This document shows, in pieces, positions 546 through 64,000 of a DNA stretch of 64,000 nt. Made by a program: the position numbers and the translations under genes. Source of the DNA: Apostichopus japonicus (lineage: Eukaryota > Echinodermata > Holothuroidea > Aspidochirotida > Stichopodidae); contig NC_092576.1 in NCBI RefSeq assembly GCF_037975245.1, forward strand, positions 28,573,111-28,637,110, read 5' to 3'. Numbering within the stretch: position 1 is the stretch's first letter; each line of letters begins with the position of its first letter. The notes beneath the pieces were generated by a model. The model did not search any database and had not been told where the DNA came from. It saw only the letters and a program-made list of their open reading frames with translations.

Positions 546-3500
546 CTGGAAATTAAAACGATAACAAACAAACTTACTGTGTTAGTATGACACGACATCA
601 CAAGAAATTTGCACATTGTCATCAATATATTGAGTAGACTTTTCACAGAATCGTCAACATGTTGAGTTACTGTTGTGCACTGAACCTGTTAACATAATAT
701 CTGGTCAAAAATTGCCAAAATGTCGAATTTCTGCGTTGCCAAATTGATATAAGTTATGCTTAGCTTTGACAACATGCCAAAATAGTGATATTTGTTGCCT
801 TTGAAAAAAGTTACACTAACATGGCATGTTTACAAAAAAGTATAATCCTGTCAAACTTCCCTTCGTGGTTGAAATGTTTGCTTTGATAAAGAAGAATGTG
901 TAGAAAGTAAGAAACCATACGATCAAATAAAACGCAACTAATCTAATTTTGAGACCTCGTTGGAAAAACGTTTGAATTTAATAAATTAATTATACCTCAA
1001 CTCCTTTGCTTGTCTTATCTTCTTCTTCCTCTGAGAAAACAAAACATAAGCAGTAGAAATAGCAACCAAGCATTCATCACTGCAAAAAGTTTTAATTTTT
1101 AAATGTTTGTTACAGCTGTGTGCTGAAAAGTGTTTTTCCAGCTTGTGACCCACTAAAGTTTATTGCAAAGATTTACATCTACTGGATGTTTCATCGGGGT
1201 GTATATGCCGTTTATCTAGACTTCAGTACAAAATTTACTGTGAGTTGTCGTTACAATTAAAGGAAAAATCGCACAAAATGTAGAATTCATTGACTGATGT
1301 TGATACCACTTAATAAATCTACTTACTTGCATCGTTCACTTGAAGCAGTTCGGTGTCCTATGACAGGAAATAAGATTCATAACTTACTAAATGGTAAATA
1401 AATTGATATTTGCAAGGGTGTGAATATTTTTTCTTTGTTATAAACATAATGCTTAGTAAATAATATACATATACAGACAAAGACTGACCTCTTCATGTTT
1501 ACTTGTGACATCGTTTCCCTCATTCTTGGTTTGTCGTTTACCTTGTAAATTTTAATGAATATTGAATTCGTGGTGAACATACTTGAGATTACATTTAAGT
1601 CTTAATTACATTATGTGAAATAAACACATCTGCAATAACAAACAAATGCCATTAAAAAACTTTATACTTCATTTCTTTATCTTAATTAGAAACTATATTC
1701 AAATATTCAAACTGTCACAGGGTTGACGCAGGTTCCGTGATATCTTTAACTGATGGAAACTAATGTCGTTGGAAATTAAATTACGTTGATGTCCTTCAGT
1801 TAGCAAGACGCATTAGAAATTTCAGAATAGCTAAGAAATCATTTATTAGTTACATCATGGCATATAGTTTCTCAGCATAAAAGCCTTGAATTTAACCAAT
1901 AAAACTGATATTTTACTTCACTTAGGATTGATATATATTCCGTGATTAGAACACAGAACGTAGACATTTCCCTTCTTGTTTAAATGACGTACAAAATAAA
2001 AAAGTATAGTCAAAAGTAATATGCTGTAATTTAACGTCTAAATTTTCATTTTTTTTTTTTTTTTGATATACATTCAGTTGAAGAGTGAAAAATCGTTCAT
2101 AAAGCTGTATAAAACCATACTTTCTAATTTAGAAATGAATAACAAAGATTTTGGCAAGATACTTGCATACCAAATGAAACAAGTTGAAATGATATTTGCG
2201 TTATACCTTTCCTGAGAACGCATGATAATCCTAGGATGATGAGGAACAGAAATACAACCACTGCTGCAATTATGAAAATCACTCTCCGTGTTTCCAAATG
2301 AAGACCGGTATGGCCTGGCTCTTCGTAAGCTTTAAATGAGGAAAGGTTCGTTTTGTCAGTAACAGGACGACCACTTCACGCTTTTGGATATCTAATTTTA
2401 AATATACTTTATGAGAATGGGATGTTTTGGGATTAATTGTCTAAGTACAACAGAGAAAATGTTGTGTAGTGCATATTATTTTATTTTGCAATATTATTTG
2501 AGGTTGTATAAAATGAATGATTATCATATCCATTAGTGGAATTGAAATTGAATAATTATGTTCGTTTTGAAGACTTGTCCCGTTTATATTTTACGATTTT
2601 AACAGTACTGATACATCATTTGAACTTACCTTAATGTTGTATTAAGTGAGAACCTAGCTCGAAACAGGACTTTGAGTAAAGTACAATGAGGGATAACGAT
2701 CGATCTGTGCACACCAAGCCTTATTGTGGAAACATAACGTTTGAGCAAATGACATATTCATTGTCTGAACTTCCTTTATTGAATTCCTGTGCTGATGTGT
2801 TGATGTGATCGCGAAAAACATGTTATATATTTTGCTTGTACATTTTACATAGATCAGATATGTCAGTCTCAAACAAAAGGCGGATTAGAGTGCAAAAAAG
2901 ATTTCCTTCTCACAGCAGGTAAAGTTGTGGACGCTAAATGGGTGTGTAATTGCGATGATGATATTGCGCGCATTTGCACCTTTCTTCGTTATGGATAACC
3001 CATATTTCGGTAAGGTAGTCTGTTAGTATGCAACGGAAAGTCCCTCTTAGGCTCGAAAATGTATTTATGCAATGAGTTGATATATGAAATATTACTTCCA
3101 TGAATGAAAATCTTAACCATAGGAAGTTACAATGATTTTACTGAAATGGTGATGGCAGTGCTTACCGGATGGAAGAAGAAGATCCAGTTTGGATGATTTG
3201 TAAACCAAATCTTCATATGGTCCAAGTACACAACATTCTACCGTCACCCTGCTTTCTATAAAACTGTGTTCATATTGTGGTAGAAGTTGAATCACAGAAG
3301 AGATGGAAACATCGTATGAGTCTCCATTCTGTTCAACGAATAACTGTTGCAGTTCGAAAGTGACAGGTGAGTCTTTCTGGTACGCTTGAAATACCAGGTG
3401 AACTTTCGGTCTTATTCTGTGTATTGTACACGTGAGCGAGTCCCCAAATTTTGCGTAGACTGTGCAGTTGTTCCCCCGTTGTTTGCATTCCTCAATCACA

Positions 3501-5939
3501 GGATACAGTGGCGACGGATAAACTAGTACAAAGTATATTAATTTGAAAGATTTACAAGGTGGAAAAATTCATTGTGCGAATAATCTGTCAAAGCAAAAGG
3601 AATATATAACGCAGATGAAGTGTTCGCACTAAGAATAATTGTAACAGTTGAAAACCACATAACACTGCCTTGAGAATTGTAGGAAATGTTCCGCTGCAGC
3701 TAATCGCTATATAAGATAATATAGAAATGTATTCAAACATGTTTTGTATCGATATTTGTTCGATATCTCAATACTGAAAGAATCCCAATGTTTTGGGGTT
3801 TTGTTTTGGTTTTTTATTTAATCGTTGTATCTTTGTGGGTGGGCGGCTTATTAATCATATTTATCATATTAACTATAATACTAGCGCAATGACAATATAT
3901 AGTAACAACCTATTCAATGTTTTGTAATGGAAACATACCGTAGACGGACACATTGTACAATTTCATGCCTTCGATTAATCCGTTGGTGTAAAGACAAACG
4001 AAGAAGCCCTCGTCTTTCACTGCAATCTCTGATACGGACAGATTCCCGGAGGTTCCAAATTCATATCCACTGGTAAAATAATGTGTGCCATCGTTGATAC
4101 TATAAAGGATGTTCTCGAAAATACCGTCCATTCGAGAGGACTTCTTCCACACTAATATGCTGTAATTGATATCTGAAGTACAGTCTAGATCCAGTTTTGA
4201 ATGCATCTCGATGTATTTTTGTGTTGCTTCAAGGGAACTAAAGTCAAACGTCTTTTCGATTATAAGCGTAGACGAAGTGGCCATCATATGTGGAGCAACA
4301 CTGGAAGCCTCGCATGTAAATATGCTAAGTCGCGGATAATGTCGGTATGAGTATGACAATGTGGATTGCGTTGTATAGGTAATATTATTCTCATCCACCA
4401 CAACACTTGAGGTCGTGATGTCATCAGTTGTCGGAATTGTTGAATTCCATTTCAAGTTTACAGCAGGTCTGGCATTTTGAACAACACAATCATAGAGAGT
4501 GTCTTCGTCCGCTTGTTTGAAGCACACGTTATTTGTCATCTCACAATTTGGAATGACAGGATAAGACGTATCAGGGGTTACTGCAATGAGATAATGAGTG
4601 TGTTTCCACCGTGTTAAGAAATAACCGAGCAACAATTAACCAATGTGCAAACTGTAGAAAATCTTCATCGGCATATTGAGAGATAGTGGGTTCTCCTGTC
4701 TTAGAAACAATTTGAAATCTGAAGTTGATAGTAATGGTTGTAAGTTAAGCCACGGACCAGTTAACTAGTACATATTAAAATAAAATGTACTTCACTTGGT
4801 GATTTTTAGTAATATTTTAATGAAAGGTGCAGGTGGTATTTCCGTTATAGACCAAAATAAAATATTGCAATAGAATTTGTTAGTTTAGAAACAAAAGTCG
4901 CTACCGGGGTTGAAATGAACTTCAATTCGAAACCATTTGAAAGGAAAGGAATGCAACCTAACATTACGTTTGTATGACTAAGCATTTAATACATAGTCAA
5001 CATGAGAAGTAAAAGTGTTGTTTTTTGAAATCGCTTAGTTGATTGAAACATTTTCGAATTATATGTGTATATTTGTTAAGTGTCACGCAGCCATAACAAC
5101 CTACAGCAGAAGACAACTTTGAGATCAGGTTTTACGTGGAACTTCCATTATCTGTCGATTGAAAGAACCGTTTGAATGAGTTTTGCCATTGACCTCTCGT
5201 TATCGGAAAAGCTTCTTCGCCACACTTTAACGATTTTCACACTGCTCGATTGATTTTGTACGACAATAATAATGACAAGTGTACATGTAATTCCTATAAT
5301 AACTTACCTGTCGTTCTTGCAACCACTGTATGCTCGACGTACCGTTCTGTAAGTTGAATAACTTGTTTAACTCGAAAAACTTTATCGTGCTGCGTTGTCA
5401 CATTAAGTATTACCAAAGATCCATCTTTATCGATGTCATACTCTCCTCGTTTATATCCTTCCCCACTTTTCTCAGACTCCTTAAAGACTGCTACAGCTTC
5501 CTCTTCATTTGAAATGTACCAAAGAACAGCATCAAAAGTTCCATTTACAGAACATTTGATGGTGCCCCTTTCCCCTATCTCAAGATATTGAAATGCATTA
5601 CAACGTTTCTGTCCATAGGAAATGTCTGATGGAAAAACATGTATGAAATTACAAATCAGGCCAAAGAAGGAATTCATGGTGATTTAATTATTGTGACCAA
5701 ACTAGCAATATATTAATAAACAGAGTAGAAAATGATCCTAAAAATGTCATTTGTACAAAACCTAATCAAAAACTGCTAAACTGCTGAAATAAATTCTGTC
5801 ATACTTCATATTCTGTCATACTTAAAATAACACAAATATGTTAAGTAAGAAAAGAGAAGATACACCAATGAGCTTCGAGGGCTAACCAACCTGATTGAAC
5901 TGTAGTGATAAAGATGAGAGCCAGAACAAGCCATTTCAT
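518..5939 (-). CDS. Gene A: Ig-superfamily transmembrane receptor, spliced model (3' end not found)
   Basis: Likely a type I cell-surface receptor. Minus-strand exons read by eye: 5891-5939 signal peptide, 5308-5625 V-like Ig, 3939-4580 two Ig domains, 3166-3522 third Ig-like module, 2207-2329 transmembrane, then cytoplasmic exons 1489-1541, 1327-1357, 996-1030 and 518-545. Every junction has AG/GT signals. Extracellular introns are all phase 1, as is usual for Ig genes, and the tail exons alternate phase 1-0, 0-1, 1-0, 0-1, so the frame stays open throughout. The last exon (518-545) ends in phase 1 at a good donor, so at least one more exon with the stop must lie further left, possibly outside the window. 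The first two Ig exons match those of gene C in order and nearly in length. Ligand and partner are unknown. Confidence is high for the exon chain and low for function beyond an immune-type receptor. Confidence 0.82.
996..1030 (-). CDS. Gene A exon 8: cytoplasmic micro-exon
   Basis: 35 nt, phase 1 in and 0 out, acceptor TTCTCAG, donor GAG|GTATAA. Encodes an acidic/basic stretch, EEDKTSKGVE. Confidence 0.55.
1327..1357 (-). CDS. Gene A exon 7: cytoplasmic micro-exon
   Basis: 31 nt, phase 0 in and 1 out, acceptor TCATAG, donor CAA|GTAAGT. Encodes DTELLQVNDA. Found because its phases bridge exons 6 and 8 exactly. Confidence 0.55.
1489..1541 (-). CDS. Gene A exon 6: cytoplasmic tail
   Basis: 53 nt, phase 1 in and 0 out, acceptor TTACAAG, donor GAG|GTCAGT. 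Encodes a polar stretch starting KRQTKNEGNDVTSKHEE, without Tyr. Confidence 0.65.
2207..2329 (-). CDS. Gene A exon 5: transmembrane segment
   Basis: 123 nt, phase 1-1. It encodes a short stalk, then IIAAVVVFLFLIILGL within a 23-residue hydrophobic stretch, then a Cys and basic residues (LRK), which fits a stop-transfer signal with the tail in the cytoplasm. Confidence 0.82.
3166..3522 (-). CDS. Gene A exon 4: third Ig-like module
   Basis: 357 nt, phase 1-1, acceptor GTACTAG and donor CCG|GTAAGC. It contains DSLTCTIH, HLVFQAYQ in place of the usual W strand, and VTVECCVLG as a likely F strand. It fits a C-type Ig fold without the core Trp and forms the membrane-proximal ectodomain. Gene C lacks an equivalent exon. 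Confidence 0.72.
3939..4580 (-). CDS. Gene A exon 3: two Ig domains
   Basis: 642 nt, phase 1-1, acceptor TCATTGCAG and donor G|GTATGT. The first domain has the Cys-Trp-Cys pattern YDCVVQ, LKWNS and FTCEAS. The second has LDLDCTS, LVWKK and DEGFFVCLY and closes with LYNVSV. Gene C exon 39593-40228 has the same layout and the same LYNVSV ending. Several N-x-S/T sites are present. Confidence 0.85.
5308..5625 (-). CDS. Gene A exon 2: V-like Ig domain
   Basis: Acceptor TTTTTCCATCAG, donor CAG|GTAAGT, 318 nt, phase 1-1, the same length as gene C exon 38464-38781. The B strand reads GTIKCSV and the C strand VLWYIS with the core Trp. The D/E region has GSLVILNVTT. The expected F-strand Cys (Y-x-C) is missing: the strand reads KVFRVKQV. 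An extra Cys lies near the start (KRCNAFQYLEIGE). N-glycosylation sites are NGT and NVT. Confidence 0.82.
5891..5939 (-). CDS. Gene A exon 1: start and signal peptide
   Basis: ATG at 5939 opens MKWLVLALIFITTVQS, a short positively charged start followed by a hydrophobic core: a typical cleavable signal peptide. It ends in phase 1 at donor GTTGGT (5885-5890). The same one-exon leader plus phase-1 donor occurs in gene C. Confidence 0.8.
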
Positions 5940-18695: not shown

Positions 18696-18699
18696 ATAA

Positions 18700-18932: not shown

Positions 18933-19744
18933 TAGCTTTTGTAAAATTCAGATGATGATGACTAAATACAATAAGTAACTGCTTTACGGCATGAAAGTCA
19001 AAGAGAATTATACTGAATTTTGAATATCTAAAGACTATCCCATTTTGTCAGTAAAGTTTCTAATAGTATGCTAGGGAGATTTACAATAGGTTTTGAGTGA
19101 CAGCAATCGTATTTCTCTTTGTTTAAAATAGAGTTGTCAATTCGTCTTGAGATCAGCGTGAAAGTATTTCTTCCCAATTATTACCATAACCTTCTTTTTT
19201 TACTGGTAACCTGAGATGGTAATGACTAACGCAATCGAAAATGCCTTGGAAATCACTTGCATACAAAACTATTAATGACTAATCGATGATATGAATTACA
19301 TTGAAAACCAAATTACGAACACAAAAAGCATATTTCCTGTTATACTTTTCTGTTTCTCCCCCAATTTCATATTGGATAAATTTTGAAGATTCTTTCGTAA
19401 GAATAAAAACATATAACGCTAAAATTCAATTCTTTTGTTTCAGAGATCTTTTTTAATGTTTTGGGATGTCTTTGTTTTGGGATGTCTTTTGTAGTTTCCT
19501 CATTTTATTCATAACACAATCTCGTAAGTTTTTTAAAGAGTTTATTAATAAGTAACCGAAATTAGCCTACCGTACTATTTATTGTAAGCATTAGGCATAA
19601 CTTCAAGACCAATCTACATTGCCAAGATTCCTTACACAGTACAAAACAGCAATTAGCTTCAAAGAAACATCATACCAGCTTTGACCGTAACATATATTGT
19701 AATCCTGTCATTTACTCAATTGGCCTTTTTTTTACAGAGTATAC

Positions 19745-22399: not shown

Positions 22400-22828
22400 T
22401 CCCCCCCCCCCCCCGCCTCCTGGTTATGCATGTCGTCCTTCGCCCGTTGGCATATCAAGGTCATCTCGCTATCTAGTTTCTCGGGAAGAGAAAGATAGAG
22501 AGAAATGACATGACACCTTTGGCATTTCAGGCTTTTTTTCATCTTTTATAGACTGATACATAGTTCGAAACCGATATTGTTGTTACACCCGGGCTAAGTG
22601 ATGAAGTGGGTCGAAATAAAGGAATATTTAATTCAAGTGGTTGCGTGATCACTTATGTTTATTACCCATTTCTTTGCGATTTTCAATTGCATCATCAGTG
22701 TTTCAGCAAATCAGATAGAGGGTTGTAAAACATCCAGTGGTACAAATAACATAACAATAAATATACTTTTCCCTTGCGCATTGAAGAAGAGTACACGAAA
22801 GGATCATCAACAACCAAGTCATCTAAAA
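22400..22828. other. 5' flank of gene B
   Basis: No separate gene seen. It starts with a C homopolymer (about 22400). An open frame with an ATG at 22655 runs into gene B, but the leader at 22829 is a better signal-peptide start, so upstream ATGs may be 5' UTR. Confidence 0.4.
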
Positions 22829-23180
22829 ATGGCTTTTAGACAAGCGAGACAAAATTTACTTTTCTTTGGAATTTACATTGTTTCCGTAAATGCATTTAAA
22901 GGTGAAAATGGAACTTCTCATGTAAAGCAAACTGAAGTGTATTCTTCAGTGATTTTCGAATGTCCTGGCGAAGATATGCCACAGCAAACCGTACAGAGAT
23001 GGGAGCACGATGATAAAGTTCTTTATGCAGGAAGAGCAAATGTCGGAAAACTCCCTGGCAAAAGCATGAGTTTATCTACGAACTATTCACTGGTTATAAC
23101 TAATGTTTCTTATTCACACGAAGGGAACTATCAATGTTTCCGAAACTCCGAACGGTGGACATATTTGCTGATTGTCACAG
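22829..23180 (+). CDS. Gene B exon 1: signal peptide and V-type Ig domain
   Basis: ATG at 22829, then a hydrophobic leader ([13 protein letters not shown]). The Ig body has the full pattern: VIFECPG (B Cys), VQRWEHD (core Trp), [19 protein letters not shown] (F Cys). It ends in phase 1 at TCACAG|GTATGT. An in-frame upstream ATG at 22655 is possible but would bury the leader. Confidence 0.8.
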
Positions 23181-26100
23181 GTATGTTTGTCATCATTTTC
23201 TCTGTATTTCATGGAGATGATCTAATCACAGACATTGATTTCGTATTTCGTTCAGCTTTCAAATTTATTGTGGTTTGCTTTATCTCATTAATGAAAAACA
23301 ATAGCAAAGTATCAGCATATGCATTTTGTTTTCTAAAGTAACTTTTTGTTGTTCCCTTGGAAACTGATGTTCAATATTTAGTTGGTCTAAATTTGCACTA
23401 GTCGAGTGTGATCGTGTTGAGACGTTGACCAGTGTCTCCCGAAGTTCCGGCTGTTTGAATTAACACAAATCTTGAACACATCTCGAGATCAAAATCAGAG
23501 AAGAGGTTGACGACTGGTTGATCTCTCATTTATTAATGTAGTTTAGTCAATCGCTGATTCACTGATATATGAATTGACCACAGATTACGGCTTTGACGGA
23601 ACTTATATATTAATAAACAGTATATATATATATATGGATATATATATGGATATATATCTATATCTACATATATACATACATATATATATATATATACATC
23701 CACGCCCTCGGAAGAATTCTATTGTATGGGGTATTGTTAAGGTTAGGACGTGGATTTGAACAATGGAAAATACAATAGGGTCCTCGGTCTGAATGTAATA
23801 CAAACATGAGTATATATATATATAAAGATATATACATCAACACAAGACTTTTAAATTTGCTATACAAATGAAAGAGTACAATCGTTATTGCTATACAAGA
23901 AATAAGAAGCGACGGTGCATTAATAACGTAACCGAAGAAATTACGGGCGGTTTTCTAGATATTGAATTGAGCATTTATTTAGTCTGTTTTATTTAGTTTT
24001 TGCAGAGCTTTCGAGCAAACTTAGCTCTTTTTCAGTGCATCATCACCGAAAGTGATCAGGAGTAGTAGGAACTGAACCTGTGTTATAGAGAAAAGTGTCG
24101 GCGACTTACTGTTTCTGCTGGATTTAGCAGACGTTTTGAAAGATCGGATTATTTTTTTTAAAAGTATTGGGTTATTTTAATCTGATTCCGTCATAATTTC
24201 AGAGGGATTGTTTAGGTTTATCTGGTACGGCAGATCGTTTCTGATGTTTCAACCGAATGGTGCTGTGGTCTTTAGGTTTAGTTCCCAGAAATTTTCTATT
24301 CCTTTTGTAGATTTATTTGTCCAAGAATCGTTTAAGTCAATGGCAATAAAACGTTTATTCTCAATCGAATATTTGTGAGATTGAAGTGATTTTCAACAGG
24401 TAGGTTGATCTTTTTTGTTTTGTTCGCCGATCTATGTTGAGTCATTCGTATTCTTGGGGTGTTTTTCGACTCTACAACGTATTGTAAGTTGCAAATATTG
24501 CAGTAGATGAGGTTAATGACATGTTTAGATAGGTGGTTTATTTTAGCCCGGATTCGGAACGTGCGTGTAGTTTGGTTGCTCTGAAATACCCCAGTCGAAT
24601 TGACAAATAAGAACGTCTTGCAATTTCGTGTATAGAGCGATGATCATGTAGTTTCTATTTTGCTTTCCCATGATGGGGATTCATCCTCAAAGGATACATG
24701 AACTTAATATCCCGTAGGTTTCTGGGTCTTATCAATAAGATGACAGGTGGTTCTGAAAAAAAACTGATTTTCAGACGTTCTGTGCTTTGAAGTAGATGAA
24801 AATTCTTCTGATTGATATTAGTCAGTGGCGGGAGACCAGGGTTGAATTCAATAACCAATGGTACCTTTTGGTACAGGTTTGACAAGTTTTATACGTCAAT
24901 GTTCGGCACGGGGTTTTCTTTTGGCCTTTCTAATGGCAATTTCAATAGTATCCCGACAATACTTTCTGTTGGAAAGGTGTTGTGACAGTTCTTTGGTGCA
25001 AGAATCAAAATCGACTTCAGAGAAGCACATGCGTGGAATGCTTAACGCTTGACTGAATGGAATATTTCTGGTACAGTGAGATGAATGGCAAATGCTTGGT
25101 AAGAGGTAGTTGTGCTTGTTCATGGGTATATTGAAAAGTCTGTCATGAGTGAGCCATTTTGTAGGGTCACAGTGGTGTTCAGAGCGTGAACGCTATGTCC
25201 AGAAAAGCATGCAGTAAATTTGATTGTGTGACGAAACGAGTTTGTCGTAAATGAAGAGTTTTAGATTTGCCTCACCATGGGTCCATATCATGAATATATC
25301 GTCAATGAGACGTAACCACGTGTGTGGTTTCAAGATTTGTCGAAACGAAAATTCTCACTCGATGTTTCCCATAAAGTTGTTGGTAAAAGACGGTGCCATT
25401 TTGGTAACCATTGCCGTGCCATGAATTTGGAGGTAGTGTTTGTCATCAAATATCAGATTATTGCCTGTCAAGAAAAGATTAAATTCTCCGGAAGCCAATA
25501 CATATTGCTATGACAATATAAAATGAAATAGTAACCTCGTTCTTTATGAAGTTCGGCTGTTCTTTCTCGAACAATAGTTGACGTTCACTATTAAGCGATC
25601 GCAGTACGTACTAGTGTGAAACTAAAACATGTAAAACTAAACTTCATGCCAAGTATTAAAAAGAGGACAATATACTTAACTTTCGATGCAAATTACACTT
25701 AAAACCTTTGTGAATTAGAAGTACCTTATAACCACGTTTACGATGTCTAAATCGGCTTTCGTTGCATGACATGCCCATTTATGTGTGTATGTCATTCATT
25801 TACAAAACAAATGTTATAGCTGATGGTTACACGTTTACGATCGTTCAAATTAGAACAATCGAAAGTTGACGAGAAATGTAAAAAGTTGTTCACGGAGGTT
25901 TTGGAAAGTGTTTACCGTAAGGCGGTAATTAGATGACAACTTTATCACGCCTTACCCAATTTTTGGTCACATACAGAATCATGAGATTAACTTTAGAGAA
26001 AGAATAATGTTATCAATTATAGAAAATAAGAACATGCTAGTTGAAAACTTTGTCAATGAGGTAAAAAACTTTACTTTTACCTCAAATTCTTGCACATAGA

Positions 26101-37176: not shown

Positions 37177-37228
37177 ATGACTGTCCTAACACTCGTTGCA
37201 GCTACATTATGTTCGCTGCTGATTTGTG
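37177..37228 (+). CDS. Gene C exon 1: start and signal peptide
   Basis: MTVLTLVAATLCSLLIC is a typical leader, ending phase 1 at TGTG|GTAACT. The frame is open upstream to an ATG at 37027, but that extension carries no features and would place the leader internally. Confidence 0.7.
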
Positions 37229-40200
37229 GTAACTTGATTTCTTTCTATATTACTTTCTTCAGTTCAGAAAAATGCTGTTAACACGTCACAAACAACCATG
37301 ATACATTAACTACTACTTCGAGACTACAAGTTTGCTACTTTTCTACATAATGTTGCCATGAAGTTAAAGACTAATATGTAATATATAATTGCAGTGTGGT
37401 ACAATTAACATTACTTCTGACAACTTGGCAAAACACTTGGTTTATGTTGCTTGACATAAGTAAATGTAAGGACGTTTCTCTACGCCGTCCCCTTGTTTAA
37501 ATCGGTGAAACTATCGATCTCTGAAAATGATTTTTCTTGTTTGAACCACAAACCTCCGTCCTCTTTTTTATCATTTTAATCGGCATTTAATGTAGTGCTA
37601 GTTTATTTGTACTTTATAAGTATTTACTATGTTATAATTGGTACGTAATGTATACCAATTATTACTACTCTGAAAAGACAGTGAATTACAGACAAGATCA
37701 CAAGACGTAATATGTTAAATATGGAAGACCAAGGTATCAATAATTAACTGATAAATTAAAAAATATACATTGACGATACGATCTAAAGTTATGCTTAGTG
37801 ATAAAAAAGCTTCAACATGGTTAAGAAGCTTAAAAACTCTGCCCCTTCATCCACCATTACTTAAAGTAATACAAGTTCCGTTCGGGCAACTATTAATGTG
37901 CGACAAAAATGGTAGGTAACAATTATTCTTGTTATGAAGAAGACATTACTTTTTGAGAAATATAACAAAAGCATGCGGCTCTGTGTCTTTGCAAAATGAT
38001 CACCTCCCTGTATTATCAATATGTTTATGTGAGCCCGGGTTGATTGGTTGTGTAAAAAGCGGCAGAAAGCCTTCCGAGACCAAAATGTTTAAAAAGTTGG
38101 TCGAAAAGAGGAGAAGTCCGTAATTAAAAATGAATCACCTTTTTATTAAATTGTTTTTATTAAATTGAGTAATCCTTTTAATTCTGTACATTTTCGTGTT
38201 GTTTTCATCACATATAAGCAACCAATAAGATACCAATATTCGGTTACGTCGACATTGAACTTGGTTACTTCACATTTGCTTAATTGCTACAAATTATTCG
38301 TATATACATCTTCTCCATACAGTAAGATCTTCCCTCTACATCATGTGGGTATAGTTCTTCTCAAAGTACAGGAAAAAAGTGTCCTAATTTCAATGGAATT
38401 TATCCCAATCTGTGAACGTATTCAATGTATGCATACTTAGCCATTGCACCTTCTCTTACTCAGGCGCCATGGAACCTATGTGTACACCATTGCAATACGC
38501 AGAACTGGGAGAAACGGTTACACTGGAATGCTCATTTGAAGAAGATTCCTATGGGATTTACTGGTATGACACGACGGATGTCACGGAAAGTCCATTTTTA
38601 TACTTAGATGAAGGAGTGAAAACCGGAGAAGGATATTTGTCAGGGGAGTTTGACATTCATGCCAACGGTTCTCTTATAATAAAGAATGTCTCATTAGACC
38701 ATGATCGCGTTTTCACCGTTGTTCAATTGCAGAACAGGGAGACCTTCACAATCACAAACAATGTCAAAGTTGTGGTAACAGGTACGTCTAAGAAATTTAT
38801 GCGTGCCATATACTAGAATGTGTCACTAAACACCAAACAAAGCCTCGCATGAAAAAGCCTTCTGGCAAGATGAGCCTTGGTTGGACAAATCGTCAGCTAG
38901 GGAATAAAGTCATATGAGCGTGGTACATATTTGTGTGTGCCATTCACTGCATTTGTTTCTATTTCTTGTATTCCGATATGTGTCTTTTATCAGCCACTTG
39001 AAGCACTTGAAACCAAACCAAGTTTTATGAAAGAGATTTGTTAATTGAATGCATAAAGGTCCTTTCAGCTGATTAAAATGTGACATTAATGTCAATCAGT
39101 GCATGGAGTAAATTGCATAGTCGCACAAATTAGTTCATCCAGCCCGTAGCTGATGTATTAAGAATGTCGTTGGAAACATGACGTTTTAAGAAACAAAATA
39201 AAGTCACATTTAAGCAGAGCTCAATATTACTCAATATTGTAACGACATGCATCAGTTAAAACTTGTACTCATGTGTGATTGTATTTCTACGATAGAGTGC
39301 TCATAAGATATGTAAGCAAACCATTCACTTGTACTTCTGGGCAATTCTCAAGGTATCTAACAAGCCAAACGTTATTACCAACATGTTTCAACACACAAAA
39401 ATACCATCTAAGAAATAACGAAGAAAACATACAACGTTTTAGATACTATATTTGTAAAAATAGATCAATTCTTTCACGTTAAATGTGATACTATAATAGA
39501 ACAATATTTTTCTTTGTAAGAAATAAGCTATACTGTTGTTACTTTCTTAAATTATGTCAGTGCTGTGACACTTCTAACTTTGACTTTTACAGTTCATCCA
39601 TCACTATCGTATCCCTCCATTCAGTGGTGCCATGAAAGTAGATATTGTTACAACCATCCACAGCACAATTTCACAGTGACCTGTTCCGCCAATGCCACTC
39701 GCCCACCCTTGACTTTGGCATGGAAGTTACAAACTGTCCATGGAAAGCAAAACATTTCTTTTGAAGCCAAGGTAGTCGAAAACCAAGGAGTGTTTACTAC
39801 TTTGATAGCAGTTGATCAGTCGGGATTGGAAAAAAACACTTTTGCGCCACTAGTCTGTGATACGGAGGTAAATCAACCTTTCAGTTCAATCAAGGATGCT
39901 TTTATCTTACTTGAAATAAATCAACCAGAAGTCATATTATCGGAAGCAGTCGTTCTGCGTCATTCCGAGAATGAATCTGTAATATTGCCTTGCTCTGATG
40001 ATGAACTTGTATTTTTTGTTTGGAAAAAGCAAATCAGCGCTTTTGAATACAAAGTCCTTGCTCACGGATCTTCCGGATATGCAATGATTGAATCCAGCGA
40101 ATACACTTTACTAAACAGTACGTCTCTGGACATACCAGGAAGTTCCGTAGAGTACAACGGCATTTACGTTTGTTTCTTCGGCGATGGGGTATATGAAGGA

Positions 40201-43200
40201 ATGACACTTTACAACGTTTCAGTCTCTGGTGAGTTCATTTTCCGTTGTTTTCCACAGCCTGTCAGTGTAAGTAGATATTATAAATTCACAGTTCACTATC
40301 AAACTGGAAATCTCATGAAACTTTCGATGTCTCTAACTTAACTGCAGAGTGGTTCGATTTCAAATTGATCTATTTAGGGCTTTATACATCGGGCATATTG
40401 TATAACCTACCAGTCTTCGAAATCAGTGAGTCATCATAGTTCCACCTTGGGACTTGATGGCAGCTTAACCGAAGTACTTCACAAGGAAGCAGTGGTATCT
40501 AGTCACTTGTTAAAGCAAAATTATGTCACGTATCGATCACAATATGTAAATGCATCAGCTTTGTGCTAGACATCTTCAATGTGTAGAATAATGATCCAAT
40601 GTTTAAACCAACATGGCAAAATGTACAGTCATTCCATTATACTATGTACGTAGTTTATCATTGAGGTCGTTAGAAGGTCAATTTACAAACAGTAGAAATT
40701 ACGATACTTTAAAAAGTTGCAACCTCTTCAATATCATGAACTTCACATATACTTTGGAACTGAAGCACACACGAAAAATTACTGTATTCAAGCACTAACG
40801 AGAAATGCAGTTTTAGGAGTACTAGGAGTACCACGAGACAGTTAATATCAAATGCAACATATATTTCCCCCCAAAATATCATTTTCATTTTCTTTTCTTT
40901 TCTTGCAGAATCGATTGGAACAGATCGTAAAAATGATAAGAATTGGACAGTAATAATCCTACCTTTAGTGATAGTAGTGATTGTTCTAGTTATAATGATA
41001 ATCGTAGTATTGATCAAGCGAGGTAATTCCATATATAATACTACGATGTATAATTTGGGTAAAATCATACTATGCATTACATACCTTTTAAAATATTAGA
41101 TTTATTTCACTTTGTAGAGATGCAAATGTTTGTATTGAGCATTGAACAACTTCATTGCAAAGAATATCACCTAGTAAGAGGCAGTCGGGCGACTTCCTCT
41201 CACGAATATAACTTAAAAACACAGTTACACGAACGCAGAAGTAACTGAATGACAGGGAATAGTAGCTGATGCAATGCGGGCGGGGGGGGGGGGGGCTTTT
41301 AAAATTTTAATGACATTCGCATAGTTTGAACAAAATTATCCATGTCTGGTTTACTTCTGTTTATCTTTTTATTCAATGTGCTTTTGATCAAAATACAAAC
41401 AAAAATATAATCACTAAAATGATAAAACAACATACACTGTGTACCAAATGGAACACATACATATTCATTCTGTTTCCATTCATAGAGAAACAATGTGGGG
41501 AATACAAACGAGCACCGACGTCAGGTGAGACGCTTCATTGCTTCATTGGTTTATGTTGGGCTTGTATACCAGACGTCTAGCCATACATTTGTTTGGTCTT
41601 TTCCTAAGACGAAACTGACTTAACTAACCTAACTAAATTACTGGTTATTTATAGTTTATATTCTTCGATTTCTTGCAGCAAACGTATAAATATATTTGTC
41701 TTAGTAAATTGAACTTGTAATCACTATGCAAAGTAACATGTAGCACATGTCATATAAGATTACGATCGATATTGTAAAGTGAATTGTTGAGTCAAGACAG
41801 ATTTTTTTTATTACATATTTCTTTTAAAAAAATAACTAAAATTGGTGGGCTGCAGGTGATAAGTTGGTATAGCAACTGAGAGATTACATTAATATCAAAT
41901 TGCAAAGATCCGTATATCTCAAATTATAGCAATTATAGCAAAGTACCGTATATCTCAATCAATCAATGACATGTAATGCATTTAAATCATCAAATGTTCG
42001 ACTGTAAAGCACAAACTACTACAGTTATGTCTACTGAAACAGGTGGACTTTCAAGCGAGCCTGACTAGTTCATGCCGACAGGTATTTACATATTCTGTCA
42101 CTCTGACCTGTGTCTTGATAACGAACACAACAAACGATTTAGAATGATAATTTATTGGTATATTCCTTGCAAATGAATATTGACATAAGCAACATAATCT
42201 TCCCCCAAACTACATTATACGCATTTTATTGTGATATTTTGCAAAGTGAAACTACACTTAAAGAATTCAAAAAGGTTTCCCTTTGTGACGTTTACCGTAA
42301 GTTGCAATTGGCTTTTGCAAATCAGAGCCACGTGTCTTCCGCCCTAACACATTTATACCTCTCACCTGCACCACCCCTCCCCCTATGATATTGCTACCCT
42401 CGGATGAATATGTATTATTAAAAATCATAAAACACACGTCTAGCGTGCGCAGAAATAGTAAACAAAAACAGGAACTCACTCTCACTCAGCAAAACATTTG
42501 AATTCAGTTAAGATAATATCAACAAACGGTTGGTAATTAAAGCTAAATATAGTTTTGTTTGTATCTCATGCACTTTTAATATTTGTTGACCCTAATGCCA
42601 GATACGGTCATATTTAATGACATGTTGATTTTCAAATTAATTATCTATTTTTCTTCTATTCTTTTCTTTTTCTATTTATTTTGACAGATAATCCAGGTGT
42701 CAAACAAGTTGACGGTACTAACATCAATGCGTCTTTGCTAGAACAAGAAACACCAGCCATACATGAACTCAACGACAGCCGTAAGCCAATAGAAAATTTT
42801 GAAGTCACTCTCACTCAGAAAAAATAAAACATTTTAATGTAATTAAGATAATGTAAAAAAGTGTTTGATAATTAAAGCTAAATAAAGTATTGTTCGTATC
42901 TCATGCACTTTTTAATATTTGTTGACTCTAATGCCATACACAGTAATATTTAATGAAATGTTGATTTTTATATTAATTATATATTTTTATTTTTATTTTG
43001 ACAGATAATCCAAGTGTCAAACAAGTTGACGGGACTAACATCAATGCGTCTTTGCTGAAACAAGGAACACCAGCAATATATGAACTCAACTACAGCCGTG
43101 AGCCAATAGAAAATTCAGATCTGAAAGTGAGAAAGTGTGACATCGGTGCATGTTCTGAAACACGCGATAACAAAGTAGTGCTGCTTGTTGGTGAGACTGG

Positions 43201-44548
43201 TGCTGGAAAGACAACGTTGATAAACGCCCTCGTGAATTATCTTTTAGGGGTCAAATGGAAAGATGATTTTCGCTATAAATTACCACTGGTTGATGAGGAA
43301 AAGAATAAATCGTACGGAGGAAGTCAAACAAAGTGGATTTCGGTTTACACCTTTCACGAACATAGATATAAAATTAATTGTAATATTACAATCATCGACA
43401 CCCCTGGGTTGGGCGATACCAATGGTAAAACGAGAGACGAAGAAATAATGAATCAAATACGAGGATTCTTTACGAATGAAATTGACCATTTAAATATGAT
43501 AGTCTTTGTCAAAAAGGTATCAGATTTGAGGAACACAGTAAGAGAAACATATATAACGAGCTTGGTCAAAAACCTCTTTGGCAAAGATGTGGCAAATATC
43601 ATATGCCTTTTTGGAACACATGCCTTAGTGAAAAACAATGAGAAGTTCAAAGATAATGCCAAAGAGTTTGGTTTTAAATTTATAGATCTATTTTTTTTTA
43701 ACAATAAACATTTGTATTTAGAGAAAGGTGCCAACAATTATATGGCACTGGAATCCCAATGGACGATGGGATGGAACAGTTTAATTTCATTTACAAATGT
43801 TTTGTCAGTATGTCCAAATGTAAGCCTAGAACTGACCAGGAGAGTAGGAACAGAAAGGGAACAGCTCAAGAAGTTCTTATCTCATTTTCCAAAGTTACTG
43901 AAAAGCAAGGTTTTCTCATACAAAGCGTTACAAGCTAAAGAGAATGCGTTACTCCTCAAGATCAATGGAAATAACCAGTTAGTCTATCAATATGAAGAAA
44001 CATACGAAGAGACAGTAAGAACCAACCTTCCTGATGGTAAAATGGCAATTGTTTGTATGCAATGTGAACGAACGTGTTGTTATCCGTGTTCTGCAAGATC
44101 GGTTTCGAGCTGCTCTTCATTTAGCTTTCTCTCCGTGGTTCGTGGATGTGAAAAATGCGAATCTCGTTGTAGGCTTGGTTATCATTTTAAGAAAAACTTT
44201 AAGTACGAACGAAAAGTAAGTACACGAATAATTACCAATGCAGCATTGGAAGAGAGACTAAAATCAGAAAAGTATGATGATATAAAGCAACTGCAAGAGA
44301 GAAACGAAAATAAAAAAACAAAAATATATGCCCAGGTCGAAACCATCAGAGACTGCATTGAGCGAATTAACAGGTTGTCTCTTGCATCAGCTGACACCAC
44401 CGTAAAACAGTTTCTTCAAAACATGATATCAAGCGAGACAGATGCAGCAGAAGCAGGTTGGAAAGATCGCGTTCAGTTCCTAAAAGAGCTTGCTTCATGC
44501 GAAGAAAAGGAGCTTTTGTCAAATTCAGATGATGATGACTCAATATGA
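37177..44548 (+). CDS. Gene C: Ig receptor with cytoplasmic GTPase, spliced model
   Basis: Exons: 37177-37228 signal peptide, 38464-38781 V-like Ig, 39593-40228 two Ig domains, 40909-41022 transmembrane, 41486-41524 short tail, then either 42688-42827 (tail with stop) or 43005-44548 (GTPase, stop at 44546). All junctions are phase 1, so both terminal exons fit the tail exon without a frameshift. Neither candidate terminal exon has a credible independent ATG start at its left end; both begin DNP.VKQVDGTNINASLL directly after a strong acceptor. Predicted product: a surface receptor with three Ig domains whose cytosolic part is a P-loop GTPase of septin/AIG1-like type, or a short-tailed isoform. 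The fusion is inferred from splice phase; transcripts would be decisive. Confidence 0.75.
38464..38781 (+). CDS. Gene C exon 2: V-like Ig domain
   Basis: 318 nt, phase 1-1, acceptor CTTACTCAG, donor ACAG|GTACGT. B strand VTLECSF, C strand GIYWYD, then NGSLIIKNVSLDHD. As in gene A the F-strand Cys is absent (RVFTVVQL) and an extra Cys precedes the domain core (MCTPLQYAELGE). Confidence 0.85.
39593..40228 (+). CDS. Gene C exon 3: two Ig domains
   Basis: 636 nt, phase 1-1, acceptor GACTTTTACAG, donor TCTG|GTGAGT. Domain one: FTVTCSAN, LAWKLQ, APLVCDTE. Domain two: VILPCSDD, FFVWKKQ, NGIYVCFFG, ending LYNVSVSG. Several N-glycosylation sites. Confidence 0.87.
40909..41022 (+). CDS. Gene C exon 4: transmembrane segment
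   Basis: 114 nt, phase 1-1, acceptor TTTTCTTGCAG, donor CGAG|GTAATT. A polar stalk rich in K, D and N is followed by PLVIVVIVLVIMIIVVL and then IKR: a single-pass anchor. Confidence 0.85.
41486..41524 (+). CDS. Gene C exon 5: short cytoplasmic linker
   Basis: 39 nt, phase 1-1, acceptor CATTCATAG, donor TCAG|GTGAGA. Encodes KQCGEYKRAPTS with one Tyr. It links the membrane anchor to either terminal exon. Confidence 0.6.
42478..43124 (+). repeat. Tandem duplication of intron plus exon head, about 330-bp unit
   Basis: Unit 1 (about 42478-42806) and unit 2 (about 42808-43124) both start cactctcactcag, run through matching intron text (tttgtatctcatgcactttt in unit 1), the acceptor and the first 40 codons. 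The junction itself creates the short exon's C-terminus and stop. Confidence 0.85.
42688..42827 (+). CDS. Gene C alternative last exon, short tail
   Basis: Acceptor TATTTTGACAG, phase 1 in. It is nearly the same as the first 40 residues of the GTPase exon (NPGVKQVDGTNINASLLEQ against NPSVKQVDGTNINASLLKQ), then diverges and ends FEVTLTQKK and TAA at 42825. AATAAA-type signals follow (42822-42827 and about 42876-42881), which could support cleavage here. It arose by a tandem duplication of about 330 bp. Use of this exon would give a receptor without GTPase. Confidence 0.6.
43005..44548 (+). CDS. Gene C terminal exon: septin/AIG1-like GTPase domain
   Basis: One large exon of about 513 codons, stop TGA at 44546. 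About 60 residues in comes the P-loop LLVGETGAGKTTLINAL (G1, near 43190), a SQT element (probable G2), then IIDTPGLGDT (G3, near 43400). The usual G4 (N/T-K-x-D or TxxD) is not clear: the strand reads NIICLFGTHALVKNN. After a helical region comes a Cys cluster, MAIVCMQCERTCCYPC and, later, GCEKCESRC (44042-44170), which may bind zinc. A coiled-coil-like helix (IKQLQERNENKKTK) and a C-terminal helix follow, ending in an acidic DDDDSI. It resembles the TRAFAC septin/AIG1 group. It has no N-terminal Met in frame near the start, which supports its being a 3' exon of gene C. Confidence 0.8.
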
Positions 44549-50780: not shown

Positions 50781-52645
50781 TACACTTCCTTTCACAAGTT
50801 TTGTTTCTTATCTCCTTCTTGCCATATGTCATATTTATGTTGTGATAGAAAAAAAAGTAAATAAATAAATTAAATGAAAAATACATATTTTTTTCAAATA
50901 CTCAGTCCAACAACGAAACTTAAAGGCATTGAAGACTTGCCCCAAACCGCGTACGGCCATCTGCAAAAGTTAACGTTCTGTTGCTTGCAAGTGACGTTTG
51001 TTCGTGTCGCTACAAAATGCAGACAGTAATGAAATGTGATACCTTGTTATCTTTAGCTGGACCTGAGATGTCCATCGCTGTATCGTTCATACACTGTGCT
51101 GTGGGTATTGACCGCAGCTGTATGCACTGACTGTGCACTAGTGTCTAATTACCGACGGTAGCAAGCTGTGCGTGTATTATCAGGGATCGATGGTGGTGTT
51201 ACACCTCATTCGAAATTAGGTCAGATTACCGGCATTAGACGTTTCTTTTTGCGCGAGTCTTCACATACTTTAATGAAAGTTGGAGTAGCTCAGCGTTGCT
51301 CTTTCCATTAAGAGAAGCTGTACACCCCAAAGTAAAGCAATCGCTATATTGCAGGGGCAAGTCGAGTACCACGGAATTCACACATTGAATCACGTACTGA
51401 AATGCCCGCCTGATAGTACGGAATAGCAAATGCAACGTTTCCATATGGGGAGTTGACATAAAAAATAGTTTCCCGAAACCGGTTGATTTTGAGATATCAA
51501 AATGTGTACATTCTGCTTGAACGCAGAGTCATAAATTTTCTTCTGTTTGATATTAGCAGTCGTATATGTTTATGACACGGATCAATTTTATCATAACTGA
51601 AGCACTTTGTTAATACAACGTTACAAAGCGTAAAGTAAAGCGGGGATAGAGTGTTAAGTACACACCATATATTTGTCACTGCCCTTTGCCTCTGCGAGGT
51701 GATAACATGTTGAATTTAAAAATAAAAGTAAACAGTTTCGTTTCTGGTGTGCAAAGAAGGCATAATATAACGATATACACCTAAGCATTGTGTGTGATTG
51801 GAACGCTGTATAACCAGCTTGATAACTGGACAAATATCGGTTGTTTCGTAAACGTGTCGAAGAAGCATTCGACGACAAGTACCGCTTAGCTTCTTAGGAC
51901 ACCTAACACAGTTGCATGGTGAGCAGTGGTGACATTGGCACGTCAAGCAAAAGTATTGTCCAAGGTAATGTAAACAACGTAGAATATAATGCAGTGCAAT
52001 AAGTGAAACGTTCTACGTATTTACACTACACCCTCCTATACTATACTGTTACCTGGAATTATTTTAACATATTTATGTAATAGTAACTTAAACTCCAATA
52101 TTTTATATCCTAGCTTAAATGTATCATAAAGTATTTGAATAACATTATATAGAGTAAACATAAAAAGTAGATATAAGTAAGGCCAACTTACTTTACACAT
52201 AGAGTAAACATGTTATCTTTTCATTAATCATTCTTTCTTAACCACCAGATTTCTTTACTTATGAATTCTTTCATTACTTAATATTTGTCATGATATTAAG
52301 AGCAAGTTTCGAAACTGTATTTGCAATGTGGTCTCATGCAAGTGAAATCTTTAGTGTTTATTTTTTAAATGATTATCTCCTTCAATCTCTCTGGGAATAA
52401 GTATCAAATCACGAATGTTTTACCTCTGTAAATCAAAGAGTTGCATTGAAACGCTTCATCGTTTCTTTTGCGTTCTATTCCGTTTTACATAGAGTCGTTA
52501 ATGCAGTAACATATGTTCTACATAACGCCAGATGTGCCACTTTATCAGCAATACGATTATTTGGACCACAAGAAACGAGGCGTAGGAGAGTTCCCAAAAG
52601 AGATTAGAACTGACGCCCAACAATGAACATAGACTATTTTCCAAT
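50781..52645. other. Intergenic, upstream of the TRIM-like gene at 52646
   Basis: No firm exon. On the minus strand near 51716-51970 one frame encodes a Cys-rich stretch, GQYFCLTCQCHHCSPCNCVR, with later Cys and His. It has no start or splice support and is described under findings. Confidence 0.35.
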
Positions 52646-53575
52646 ATGGAAAAACAGTCATCTGAACCAGTCGAACAGAGAATGACTCCGGGGGCTACGC
52701 ATTCTGTGCAAAATAAAGGAAAACCTGTTAATACAAACAAACTGATTGGCAGTGTCATGATCCTGCCGAATCAGCTGATCCATATTTACGACGAAAGGAT
52801 CGAGAATGGATGTGTTCGGCTTGTTTGTAAGGACCCTCAAGACGTAAATGGAATGATTTGGCAATACCTGGTGCGAACCTACGATAAAACGGCTCCCGTG
52901 GTCATGTCAAATGTGACCATACGAGACAGGGAGACCAACGTTGCAGCTTTTGCCGTTGGAAAGAGAGTTTTCTTGGTGAGGTTCCATTTTCTGGGTCAAA
53001 TTTATGACTCCGTTGAGTCAATTTCCTCCTTGAAGGTCGACGACGTTATTACAGGTTCTTGGATTTCTTGTATCAATGCGCATTACTCTTCCGGCAGCAA
53101 GTTAAAATTTGACCTGTTGATTTCTATCGGCGTTCAGAATGAAATAAGAGGTTGCAAGCTAACGGGAGAAGTGGTCAAGGAAATCAAACCGCGGGAGGAC
53201 CTATCACTCGTTACGTCCATTGCATCGTCCGGCAATGTCATTGCCATTATCCACCGCGAATTCGATCACGTCATATTGTTGACATCCGATATCACCACCA
53301 AAGCATGTGGATCGCTCATACCTGTTAAACGTATGTCCCGTCAACGACCTGTTTCAGTGATTTGGACCGGATCGATGTGGATGGTTCTATGGGTTGGTCG
53401 AGAAAGATCAAAAGTTTGGATGATTTCTACGTACAAACAGACAGGGGAACTTCTTAAAGTAACCGTATCTTCTTCTCAAATCAGTGACGGCGACGAGCCA
53501 ATAAGTCTTGCACGATTCGGCAACACTGGCTTTGTCAGCTTCAAAAACCAACCAATCAAATTGTTTCAGTTTTAG
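52646..53575 (+). CDS. TRIM-like C-terminal domain protein lacking B-box
   Basis: A 309-residue single open frame starting at a well-placed ATG (A at -3, G at +4) and ending TAG. From about residue 30 it parallels the C-terminal half of the B-box protein at 58469-59958: HIYDERIENGCVRLVCKDP against RVFDERKSYGRIRFICTDS, and a shared end, SFKNQPIKLFQF against CFSNDDVVNFNLP. The repeated hydrophobic-strand pattern suggests a beta-propeller-like or other all-beta substrate domain; this is inference. No RING, B-box or coiled coil precedes it. It may be a full short gene, or an upstream exon was missed in 50.8-52.6 kb. No signal peptide or membrane segment. An AATAAA signal lies at about 53936. Confidence 0.72.
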   Translation: MEKQSSEPVEQRMTPGATHSVQNKGKPVNTNKLIGSVMILPNQLIHIYDERIENGCVRLVCKDPQDVNGMIWQYLVRTYDKTAPVVMSNVTIRDRETNVAAFAVGKRVFLVRFHFLGQIYDSVESISSLKVDDVITGSWISCINAHYSSGSKLKFDLLISIGVQNEIRGCKLTGEVVKEIKPREDLSLVTSIASSGNVIAIIHREFDHVILLTSDITTKACGSLIPVKRMSRQRPVSVIWTGSMWMVLWVGRERSKVWMISTYKQTGELLKVTVSSSQISDGDEPISLARFGNTGFVSFKNQPIKLFQF

Positions 53576-57994: not shown

Positions 57995-58468
57995 GTAACC
58001 AGACATTAATTTATTTTTGTTTCTTATTCTTTGATAAAATGTTTGTATCTTTTCGTGTAAACACATGAAATAAATTTAAAAAAATGCTTGCATGTAAAAC
58101 AAACACAAGATTGTTTTACCATGATATCCCACAAGGCACTCAATATGCAATTCACTTGCATAATAAAAGTAAAGCAATCTTTTACAATACTAGTTTCCTT
58201 TCGGGATAGTTGTACCCTGTTATACGGTATATTTAATAACGTTTTGGAAGGCACATCTTTAGTTCAATCCTTGCTCGGGAACAACCAACTTTTTGGTGTT
58301 ATCCCAGTTCGGTATTTTAGTGAACGTATCCTGCAGTCTGTTCCAGTAGTTGTTTGGTTTATCGATGGTTACTTTCATACTATCGTCTGCAGTCATATTT
58401 TAAAATCTTTAGTCATCCATGGAAATATGAAATGACTTGCGATTCATACATTGATTTCTGTTCGACAG

Positions 58469-59958
58469 ATGGTCCATGTGACTTCACAGAAGTATGTAAA
58501 AGACATGAAGCATTTCGCATCGATTATTTCTGTACAATTTGTGCTGAATGCATATGTCTAAGATGTCTTGTGGACGCTCACATTGAACATGATGTCATCA
58601 AATGTTCCAAATACGCGAGTCACGCAAAAGAATTGCGAAAACAAATCGACGACATCGCGGCCAAAAACGATAGGTGTAAAGACATGGACAACTATTACAA
58701 TACTCTACAGGAGAAAGTAGTCCAAAGTTACAACAAGATATGTGGGAAGATAACGGACGATCTGTTGGCGAAATTAAGGGTGATAGACCAACATCGGTTG
58801 GCAGAGAAAGTCAAAATGGATCGCACCAGCAACGTTTTGAAAGGCAAGGCAGTCGATCTCAAGGAAAACCTTGATTCGATGTATGTTTCTGCGGGAAAAA
58901 ACAATGAAGTATGGAATAATTTGAACAGTTTAAAACAAAGAATAAACAGTTTGGAGAAATCGACCAAAGAATCCACAGTTTCTGCAGAATACAAGAAGGT
59001 ATTATTTATTTCGGCATCGGAAGCATCATCTTTCACCATTGGTAGAATGATAAAAGGTTCGACTGTGGGTGCTAACTGGATACGACAAGCTCCAGACCAA
59101 TTTGTTCGTGTATTCGACGAACGAAAAAGTTATGGCCGTATCCGCTTCATTTGTACCGATTCCAAACAGTTGGACACATTTTTTGGGGACTTTCCAATAA
59201 TGGACAGTTCCTCAACAAAGCTGGTCATGTCGCACAGCTGCATACCTATTAACGGACACAAATATATGTTATTGGCGTGGAAGAAGATAATCATGATTGA
59301 GTTGATAATGAGCAAAATCAACGGTGCTGGACAACCTCACGAAGAAGTCAAATCGCACAAAATCATCGATATTGAATGTCCACGAGATGATTCACACATC
59401 ATAGGAATTAATGCCCACCGACCATACGATGAAGATTGCAGTGAATACCTGGTTGCGTTTAGTAACTGCCTCATGCTATATGAGTACAACATTGATGAAA
59501 TTAAGCCCCGTCGCATTATAGACTGTGGTAGTGAGCTTGGCAAACGTGTAAGCGGCTTTTTTGACATTGCCTACAGAGAAGCACTTTATATAGTGATCGA
59601 GTCTCCAACCCAAACAGTGACGCTGCTAAAAAGTGATGAAGCCAGTAGAATTGTTCCTCCAAAACCGATTCGTTTGACGGAAGTGAAGAATTTAATTCAT
59701 CCCAAAGGTATGCAGCCCCTTATTGTGTACCCGAGCTGTAAGAAGTGGTTGCTATTATGGCAAACCATCTCTGCAACAGACCAACCTATCTCTCTCAACG
59801 TCGGTACGTTCGATATGGATAAAGAAGGAAGTTTCACTTCGTGTTGGGAAGGGCAGTGTCCTAATAGTGTTGTACCTGTTGGAGTATGCCGATATCAAGA
59901 ACAGGCGCTTATTTGCTTTTCTAACGATGACGTAGTCAACTTCAATCTTCCGCCGTAA
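58469..59958 (+). CDS. B-box/coiled-coil TRIM-like protein, main exon
   Basis: About 495 codons, stop TAA at 59956. Acceptor GTTCGACAG, phase 1 in. First comes a B-box type 2 zinc finger, VCKRHEAFRIDYFCTIC, then ECICLRCLVDAHIEHD (C-x2-H-x9-C-x2-C-x4-C-x2-C-x4-H-x2-H). A long coiled coil follows (about 58620-59000: AKELRKQIDDIAAKNDR and QEKVVQSYNKI). The C-terminal half is all-beta in character and matches the 52646-53575 protein. There is no RING, so it is unlikely to be a ubiquitin ligase on its own. The open frame also runs upstream through the intron to a Met at 58432 (MTCDSYIDF), a possible alternative start if the broken exon 1 is skipped. Probably cytosolic, with innate-immune-type scaffolding as in other TRIM proteins; the role is inference. 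Confidence 0.78.
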
Positions 59959-60953: not shown

Positions 60954-61511
60954 CAAGGAAGAATCAGGACTATGTATACATATTCCAGAATAGAAGAATA
61001 TTCCAGAATAGAATTAATGTTACTTATTACCACATGCAAGTTTATATATCTTGAGTCAAAATTTAATTCTGTTGAGGTAGGTAGAATAAATTAGCGAAAA
61101 CTTGACATCCTATTATCAGTCATTGTATACTTGCGTTTCACTTTCATTTGGCACGAGAAATACGACATTACCATATGCGCCCTCTATTTATCTGCATTGG
61201 AAGATCAGTTTCCATCCATCCTCTCTCAATTCATAACACGCCCTCCATTCTACAAGACGATGACATATATGTATGTTGAAGGGTTATGCATAAATAAGTT
61301 CCTGGTCGATCCTTGCGAAATTGAGACTGTAGACTCTAATTCTTAGGATTTAGTGTCGGGTTGGACCACTGTCAATAAATAATTATAACTGACTTTAATT
61401 ATAAACCTTGCCAAGTGGTATTTTCTCTGCTACCAGTTTAATAGAACTTTTAGTTCGAACCATTTAGCTCTAACAAGTCCCTTCATAGATCAGAACCATT
61501 TGTGTTCTACC

Positions 61512-61513
<2 letters not shown>

Positions 61514-61591
<78 letters not shown>

Positions 61592-61610
61592 TATACATAT
61601 ATATATATAT
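61514..61610. repeat. (TA)n microsatellite
   Basis: About 97 bases of TA with two TACA steps, at the left edge of a LINE fragment. Confidence 0.97.

Positions 61611-64000
<2,390 letters not shown>

Follow-up and report, generated by a model that had tools for sequence, protein, structure and literature searches.

Can the cytoplasmic half of an immunoglobulin (Ig) receptor be a GTPase, or do two separate genes merely lie side by side? The question is raised by a gene of the sea cucumber Apostichopus japonicus in a 64,000-nucleotide stretch of the forward strand (G000:C16:28573111-28637110, hereafter the window), which was analyzed against a searched genome of 671.6 Mb. A first-pass annotation, made from the letters alone, had proposed a single gene with an Ig receptor outside and a septin/AIG1-class G domain inside, and the NCBI prediction P0001, a tandem paralog, and a third gene copy agree with that proposal. 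We conclude that the window gene is very probably a working host gene for a single-pass surface Ig receptor with an intracellular G domain, belonging to a holothurian family in which Ig domains, a transmembrane segment, and a P-loop nucleoside triphosphatase (NTPase) form one chain; this degree of confidence covers its architecture and family. The annotation's interpretation as a whole is partly supported.

The gene consists of six coding exons on the + strand, separated by GT-AG introns that are all in phase 1 and joined into one frame of 900 codons with a single stop (Table 1). The phase-1 chain of leader, Ig, transmembrane, and linker exons running in frame into the GTPase exon was laid out correctly in the first-pass annotation, every exon of which is present, yet the chain that it called complete overlooked one exon (42688-42780), whose inclusion lengthens the frame to 931 codons. 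P0001 (812 residues, A. japonicus) matches the window letter for letter over a short alternative start, the Ig2+3 and transmembrane exons, both linker exons, and the GTPase exon; its joins are identical to ours from 39593 onward. In P0001, this chain is preceded by a start of 13 bases that lies within the V exon. NCBI gene models usually follow RNA reads, so this odd start suggests a read-supported alternative splice. The leader exon, absent from P0001, is the least certain exon and the weakest part of the model. By hydropathy, the leader and one transmembrane helix (IILPLVIVVIVLVIMIIVV) are the highest stretches of the product. The P-loop and DTPG motifs noted in the tail are found as G1 (GETGAGKT, tail residue 62) and G3 (DTPG, residue 131), and the lack of a methionine near the start of the GTPase exon is confirmed: the first in-frame one is residue 148, behind both motifs, so that the exon alone cannot start an intact G domain. 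A chance joining of unrelated exons is ruled out by P0001, the tandem paralog, and the third copy. The three Ig domains fare unequally. The Ig2+3 exon scores 20.7 bits for Ig_3, below the Pfam cut-off of 30, and the homologous stretch of P0004, a model from an older assembly, exceeds the cut-off of the ig family (28.5 versus 21.8); the first and third domains are therefore sound and the second is weaker.

Table 1. Coding exons of the window gene, its tandem paralog, and a neighboring receptor (window positions, except where C16 is given).
Feature	Position	Strand	Evidence and remarks
Leader exon	37177..37228	+	In-frame ATG, hydrophobic stretch, GT donor, phase 1; predicted signal peptide MTVLTLVAATLCSLLIC
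V-set Ig exon	38464..38781	+	Pfam V-set 3.7e-8; identity 99% to P0002, 96% to P0004
Short alternative 5' coding start, NCBI isoform X2	38551..38563	+	Internal donor in V exon, other frame; exact P0001 match
Ig2+3 exon (Ig domains 2 and 3)	39593..40228	+	Open frame, splice borders, P0001; 128 own-genome matches including itself
Transmembrane exon	40909..41022	+	Hydropathy 3.8 over 19-20 residues; sole peak of at least 1.9 in P0001
Juxtamembrane linker exon	41486..41524	+	Present in P0001; in P0004 as EYKRAPTS
Duplicated linker exon, optional	42688..42780	+	Near copy of GTPase-exon start; in P0001; homologue in P0004
Cytoplasmic GTPase exon, 1.5 kb	43005..44548	+	N-terminal segment, septin/Toc34/GIMAP-type G domain, helical arm, Cys/His cluster, C-terminal helices
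Paralog V exon	C16:28540599-28540919		
Paralog Ig2+3 exon	C16:28541585-28542220		
Paralog transmembrane exon	C16:28542644-28542757		
Paralog GTPase exon	C16:28547128-28548644		
Neighboring same-family receptor	2207..5625 (approximate limits)	-	V, Ig2+3, further Ig exon, transmembrane exon

The tail was placed in a class by profile, structure model, and alignment. Pfam returns AIG1 (7e-9) and Septin (2e-7); the AIG1 score of 35.7 bits passes the curated cut-off of 27, spanning only profile positions 3-136 of 212. Against NACHT, the tail domain of AjNLRC4-type receptors, the match has an E value of 0.027 and 14.7 bits, under the cut-off of 26.7. The structure model has a predicted local distance difference test (pLDDT) score of 82.6 and finds Toc34, GIMAP, and septin as its fold matches, and its predicted fold is that of a septin/Toc34/GIMAP-class G domain. 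In an alignment of the window exon with 29 proteins chosen by hand among those found (alignment A2), residues C350, C357, C361, C381, C388, and H393 are identical in all thirty rows.

The arrangement recurs elsewhere in the species. A tandem paralog about 70 kb upstream (C16:28540599-28548644) has the same exon order and phase in one open frame of 862 codons, counted from the V exon and without a linker exon; its leader was not located. Residue identity to the window gene is 55% in the V exon (synonymous divergence, Ks, 2.9), 41% in Ig2+3 (Ks 1.9), 19% in the transmembrane exon, and 74% in the tail (Ks 0.21), and the DNA similarity extends into the intron preceding the tail and beyond the tail end. 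Clean co-divergence of Ig half and tail is not seen in this pair. Young tails on saturated receptor halves point to a recent common copy of the tail, which may have been copied or converted between old receptors. The third copy (C16:29.154-29.164 Mb) retains Ig2+3, transmembrane, and GTPase-like exons, whose borders, by inspection, allow phase 1 throughout. Identity to the window gene is 28% in its tail and 29% in its Ig exon, and a tail tree places it with the receptor tails at no more than 89/93, flagged for a long branch; that tree has 21 rows, left after dropping identical copies, matches with an E value above 1e-10, and stretches that span fewer than 330 residues. The exon order of the window gene is found as well in P0002 and P0004, two older-assembly models. 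P0004 lacks G1 to G3, probably through a fault of model or assembly. The window itself contains, at 18394-18950, GTPase-exon fragments on both strands with stops, which read as what is left of one more tail copy, now broken and in part inverted.

How large is the family to which this receptor belongs? Counting itself, the Ig2+3 exon matches the genome at no fewer than 128 places, at least 97 of them on C16; 150 of 229 candidates were scored, so that these counts are lower bounds. Among the 106 NACHT matches scored out of 487 candidates, 38 have a same-strand Ig2+3 exon within 20 kb upstream (29 of the 34 on C16), compared with one to three when the Ig positions were moved 100 or 250 kb either way. 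Only one has a same-strand Ig exon downstream and none has one on the other strand. This excess of upstream Ig exons agrees with the published Ig-transmembrane-NACHT receptor AjNLRC4. The corresponding count for GTPase matches is three of ten loci, and none of ten under each of four shifts; ten of 19 places were used, second pieces of the same loci, the fragments at 28.591 Mb, and the duplicated exon being omitted. The idea that all GTPase relatives are receptors is thereby ruled out, since at seven of the ten loci no same-strand Ig2+3 exon is listed in the 20 kb upstream. Further Cys-rich GTPases of this class lie at C8 14.96-15.52 Mb and C20 30.62-30.65 Mb, some as long single frames of up to 1326 codons, with no Ig match among the matches listed for those stretches, which cover four of eight queries. 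For a putative AIG1-tailed receptor of A. japonicus at C16:43.66 Mb, no Ig exon occurs among the matches listed, with the same coverage, for 43657000-43666999, and none of the 128 matches lies within 20 kb. True AIG1 matches cluster at G000:C1 2.67-2.92 Mb, several of them within or next to frames of more than 700 codons.

Two features tie the window gene to the AjNLRC4 type: its Ig2+3 exon is related to the Ig2+3 of NACHT-tailed receptors (the comparison being with genomic relatives, and with AjNLRC4 by description), and a transmembrane segment lies between its Ig part and its NTPase. NACHT-tailed proteins of this Ig kind include P0079, P0104, P0118, P0130, P0132, P0136, and P0137; the NACHT score of P0092 (24 bits) is just below the cut-off of 26.7, and the NACHT match of P0131 is partial and weak. 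A NACHT-tailed neighbor begins about 31 kb from the window gene on the minus strand and continues into a NACHT exon beyond the left edge of the window, close to it (match at G000:C16:28572396-28572860, minus strand). Elsewhere in the window, an open frame at 22649-23341 encodes a single Ig domain (Ig_3 3.2e-6, 28 bits, under the cut-off of 30), a long single frame at 58324-59958 has a weak B-box match (1.9e-4, below cut-off), a long single frame at 52586-53575 has no Pfam match, and a frame at 61454-62221, also without a Pfam match, resembles a reverse-transcriptase remnant by eye.

GTPase tails on related receptors extend beyond A. japonicus. P0128 and P0129 of Holothuria leucospilota, which NCBI lists as 'GTPase IMAP family member 4' and '7', have Ig domains related to those of the window gene and carry AIG1 tails, as do P0076 and P0127 from the source labeled 'lgn', which we take to be Logan (AIG1 E 1.9e-42 to 2.2e-46). 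Three of the four show a single transmembrane peak, and the P0129 model shows none. On their contigs of 5,295 and 3,944 bases, P0076 and P0127 each form one unbroken frame, 901 and 778 codons long respectively; since the A. japonicus genes have introns, these contigs are probably spliced transcripts. In a tree of 20 Ig2+3 regions (four genomic exons and 16 proteins, with P0118, P0137, and P0138 excluded for a shorter or different Ig part), receptors with septin-like tails form one clade (100/99) and those with AIG1 tails another (96/98), and two label changes suffice. The tree has its weakness in that 8 of its 17 inner branches are drawn open, and holding all nine GTPase-tailed rows as one clade is not rejected (approximately unbiased test, p-AU 0.164), for which reason two gains as a proven fact were dropped. 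The two kinds of tail come from different GTPase branches, which points to two gains or a replacement, and GTPase tails were likely gained twice. The most likely overall picture is of a large holothurian family of Ig receptors with a P-loop NTPase as tail, NACHT in many (the AjNLRC4 type) and a GTPase in few.

The observations that weigh against a working surface receptor are best taken together with the alternatives that they favor. One alternative concerns the mechanism only and overlaps with our conclusion: the receptor is real, and its tail is a pseudo-GTPase, a nucleotide-independent scaffold whose helical and Cys/His parts recruit partners. The G4-like aspartate is missing in all four receptor-tail rows, where THAL replaces THSD, and is present in 25 of the 26 other rows, so that GTP specificity of the receptor tail cannot be assumed; the third copy, moreover, has degenerate G1 and G3 motifs (SESGAGKP, DLPES). 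The window gene, P0002, and P0003 all retain G1 and G3, although a pure scaffold would not need them, and we consider this alternative rather unlikely. Less probable still, and in our view improbable, is a joined gene that is non-functional or decaying under relaxed constraint on the tail, or one whose main product is a soluble or truncated isoform. The ratio of nonsynonymous to synonymous divergence (Ka/Ks) between the tandem tails is 0.68, a sign of weak constraint, and would fit decay, as would the lost G4-like aspartate, the tail remnants at 18.4-18.95 kb, and P0001 itself, which as isoform X2 has no leader, and hence no signal peptide, and little of the V domain; yet both tandem genes remain open over 500 aligned tail codons despite a Ks of 0.21, and the Cys/His residues are invariant in 30 of 30 rows. 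The weakest alternative, two adjacent genes (one for an Ig receptor that ends at the linker or in some other tail, the other for a septin/AIG1-like GTPase) misjoined by prediction, can point to P0003, a GTPase-only frame whose first codons look like intron sequence, to the class GTPases without a nearby Ig exon at seven of ten loci, and to fish proteins without Ig in their Pfam lists, but is very improbable against the lack of any in-frame methionine before G1 and G3, the order, strand, and phase kept in three gene copies, and the linker and duplicated exon retained in the older-assembly model P0004. A last contrary point comes from a second published Ig-NACHT protein, AjNLR-new, for which a reversed topology with NACHT outside is reported (PMC13133943), in conflict with the order of leader, Ig, transmembrane segment, and NTPase.

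If the window gene is expressed as a surface receptor of this topology, it would probably sense microbial or self surfaces on immune cells. Clustering by such a ligand could bring the tails together, clustered tails might form nucleotide-dependent dimers or filaments at the membrane, and, if AjNLRC4 is a guide, the assembled tails may recruit death effectors or the cytoskeleton. Toc34 and GIMAP dimerise upon nucleotide binding, and titles among the structure-match entries mention Toc33 dimerisation. We regard nucleotide-driven assembly of the tail as tentative, with somewhat less than an even chance of being right. Were the receptor to work in this way, a bound ligand would act on a self-assembling nucleotide switch directly, with no adaptor between them. 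On the scale of the chromosome, a modular repertoire may exist in which Ig receptors bear interchangeable NTPase tails (NACHT commonly, GIMAP and septin-like tails gained separately), copied between diverged receptors; we put this just short of an even chance. If true, recognition and effector halves would evolve as separate cassettes in invertebrate immune receptors. Over 100 related Ig exons exist, most of them on a single chromosome; many precede a NACHT tail and at least three a GTPase-like one, which makes such swapping of effector tails directly testable.

To our knowledge, vertebrate GIMAPs and septins are separate from receptors, and receptors with a septin/GIMAP-class cytoplasmic GTPase are unusual. 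That no described family joins Ig domains to a GTPase, as had been stated at first, holds for the searched open-licence literature, in whose listings no paper on this receptor form was found; it does not hold for databases, where such proteins already exist as NCBI predictions (P0001, P0128, and P0129), and a sister Ig-transmembrane-NACHT class is published. The H. leucospilota proteins P0128 and P0129, together with P0076 and P0127, resemble the window gene in having a same-family Ig receptor with a GTPase tail, but theirs is a standard AIG1/GIMAP domain, from a GTPase branch other than that of the window gene. Zebrafish si:ch211-285c6.4 (P0017), an uncharacterised Cys-rich septin/AIG1-like GTPase, is 27% identical over 95% of the tail and shares the Cys/His cluster; unlike the window tail, it keeps the G4-like aspartate, and its Pfam list is without an Ig domain. 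In another holothuroid, Chiridota heheva, NLRs with a V-set domain are reported (PMC8913654), which likewise combine V-set and P-loop NTPase, theirs being NACHT and not a GTPase. Close counterparts occur in the same species: AjNLRC4 and AjNLR-new each combine Ig domains, a transmembrane segment, and a P-loop NTPase within a single protein (PMC8699970, PMC13133943), and are set apart, by their published descriptions, through a NACHT tail in place of the septin/AIG1-class G domain and, for AjNLRC4, through two reported transmembrane segments instead of one (PMC8699970). AjNLRC4 is reported to reside at the coelomocyte membrane, to bind microbes with its Ig part and actin with its NACHT, and to promote phagocytosis (PMC8699970); it is also reported to dimerise and to form an inflammasome-like complex with a caspase (PMC11932488).

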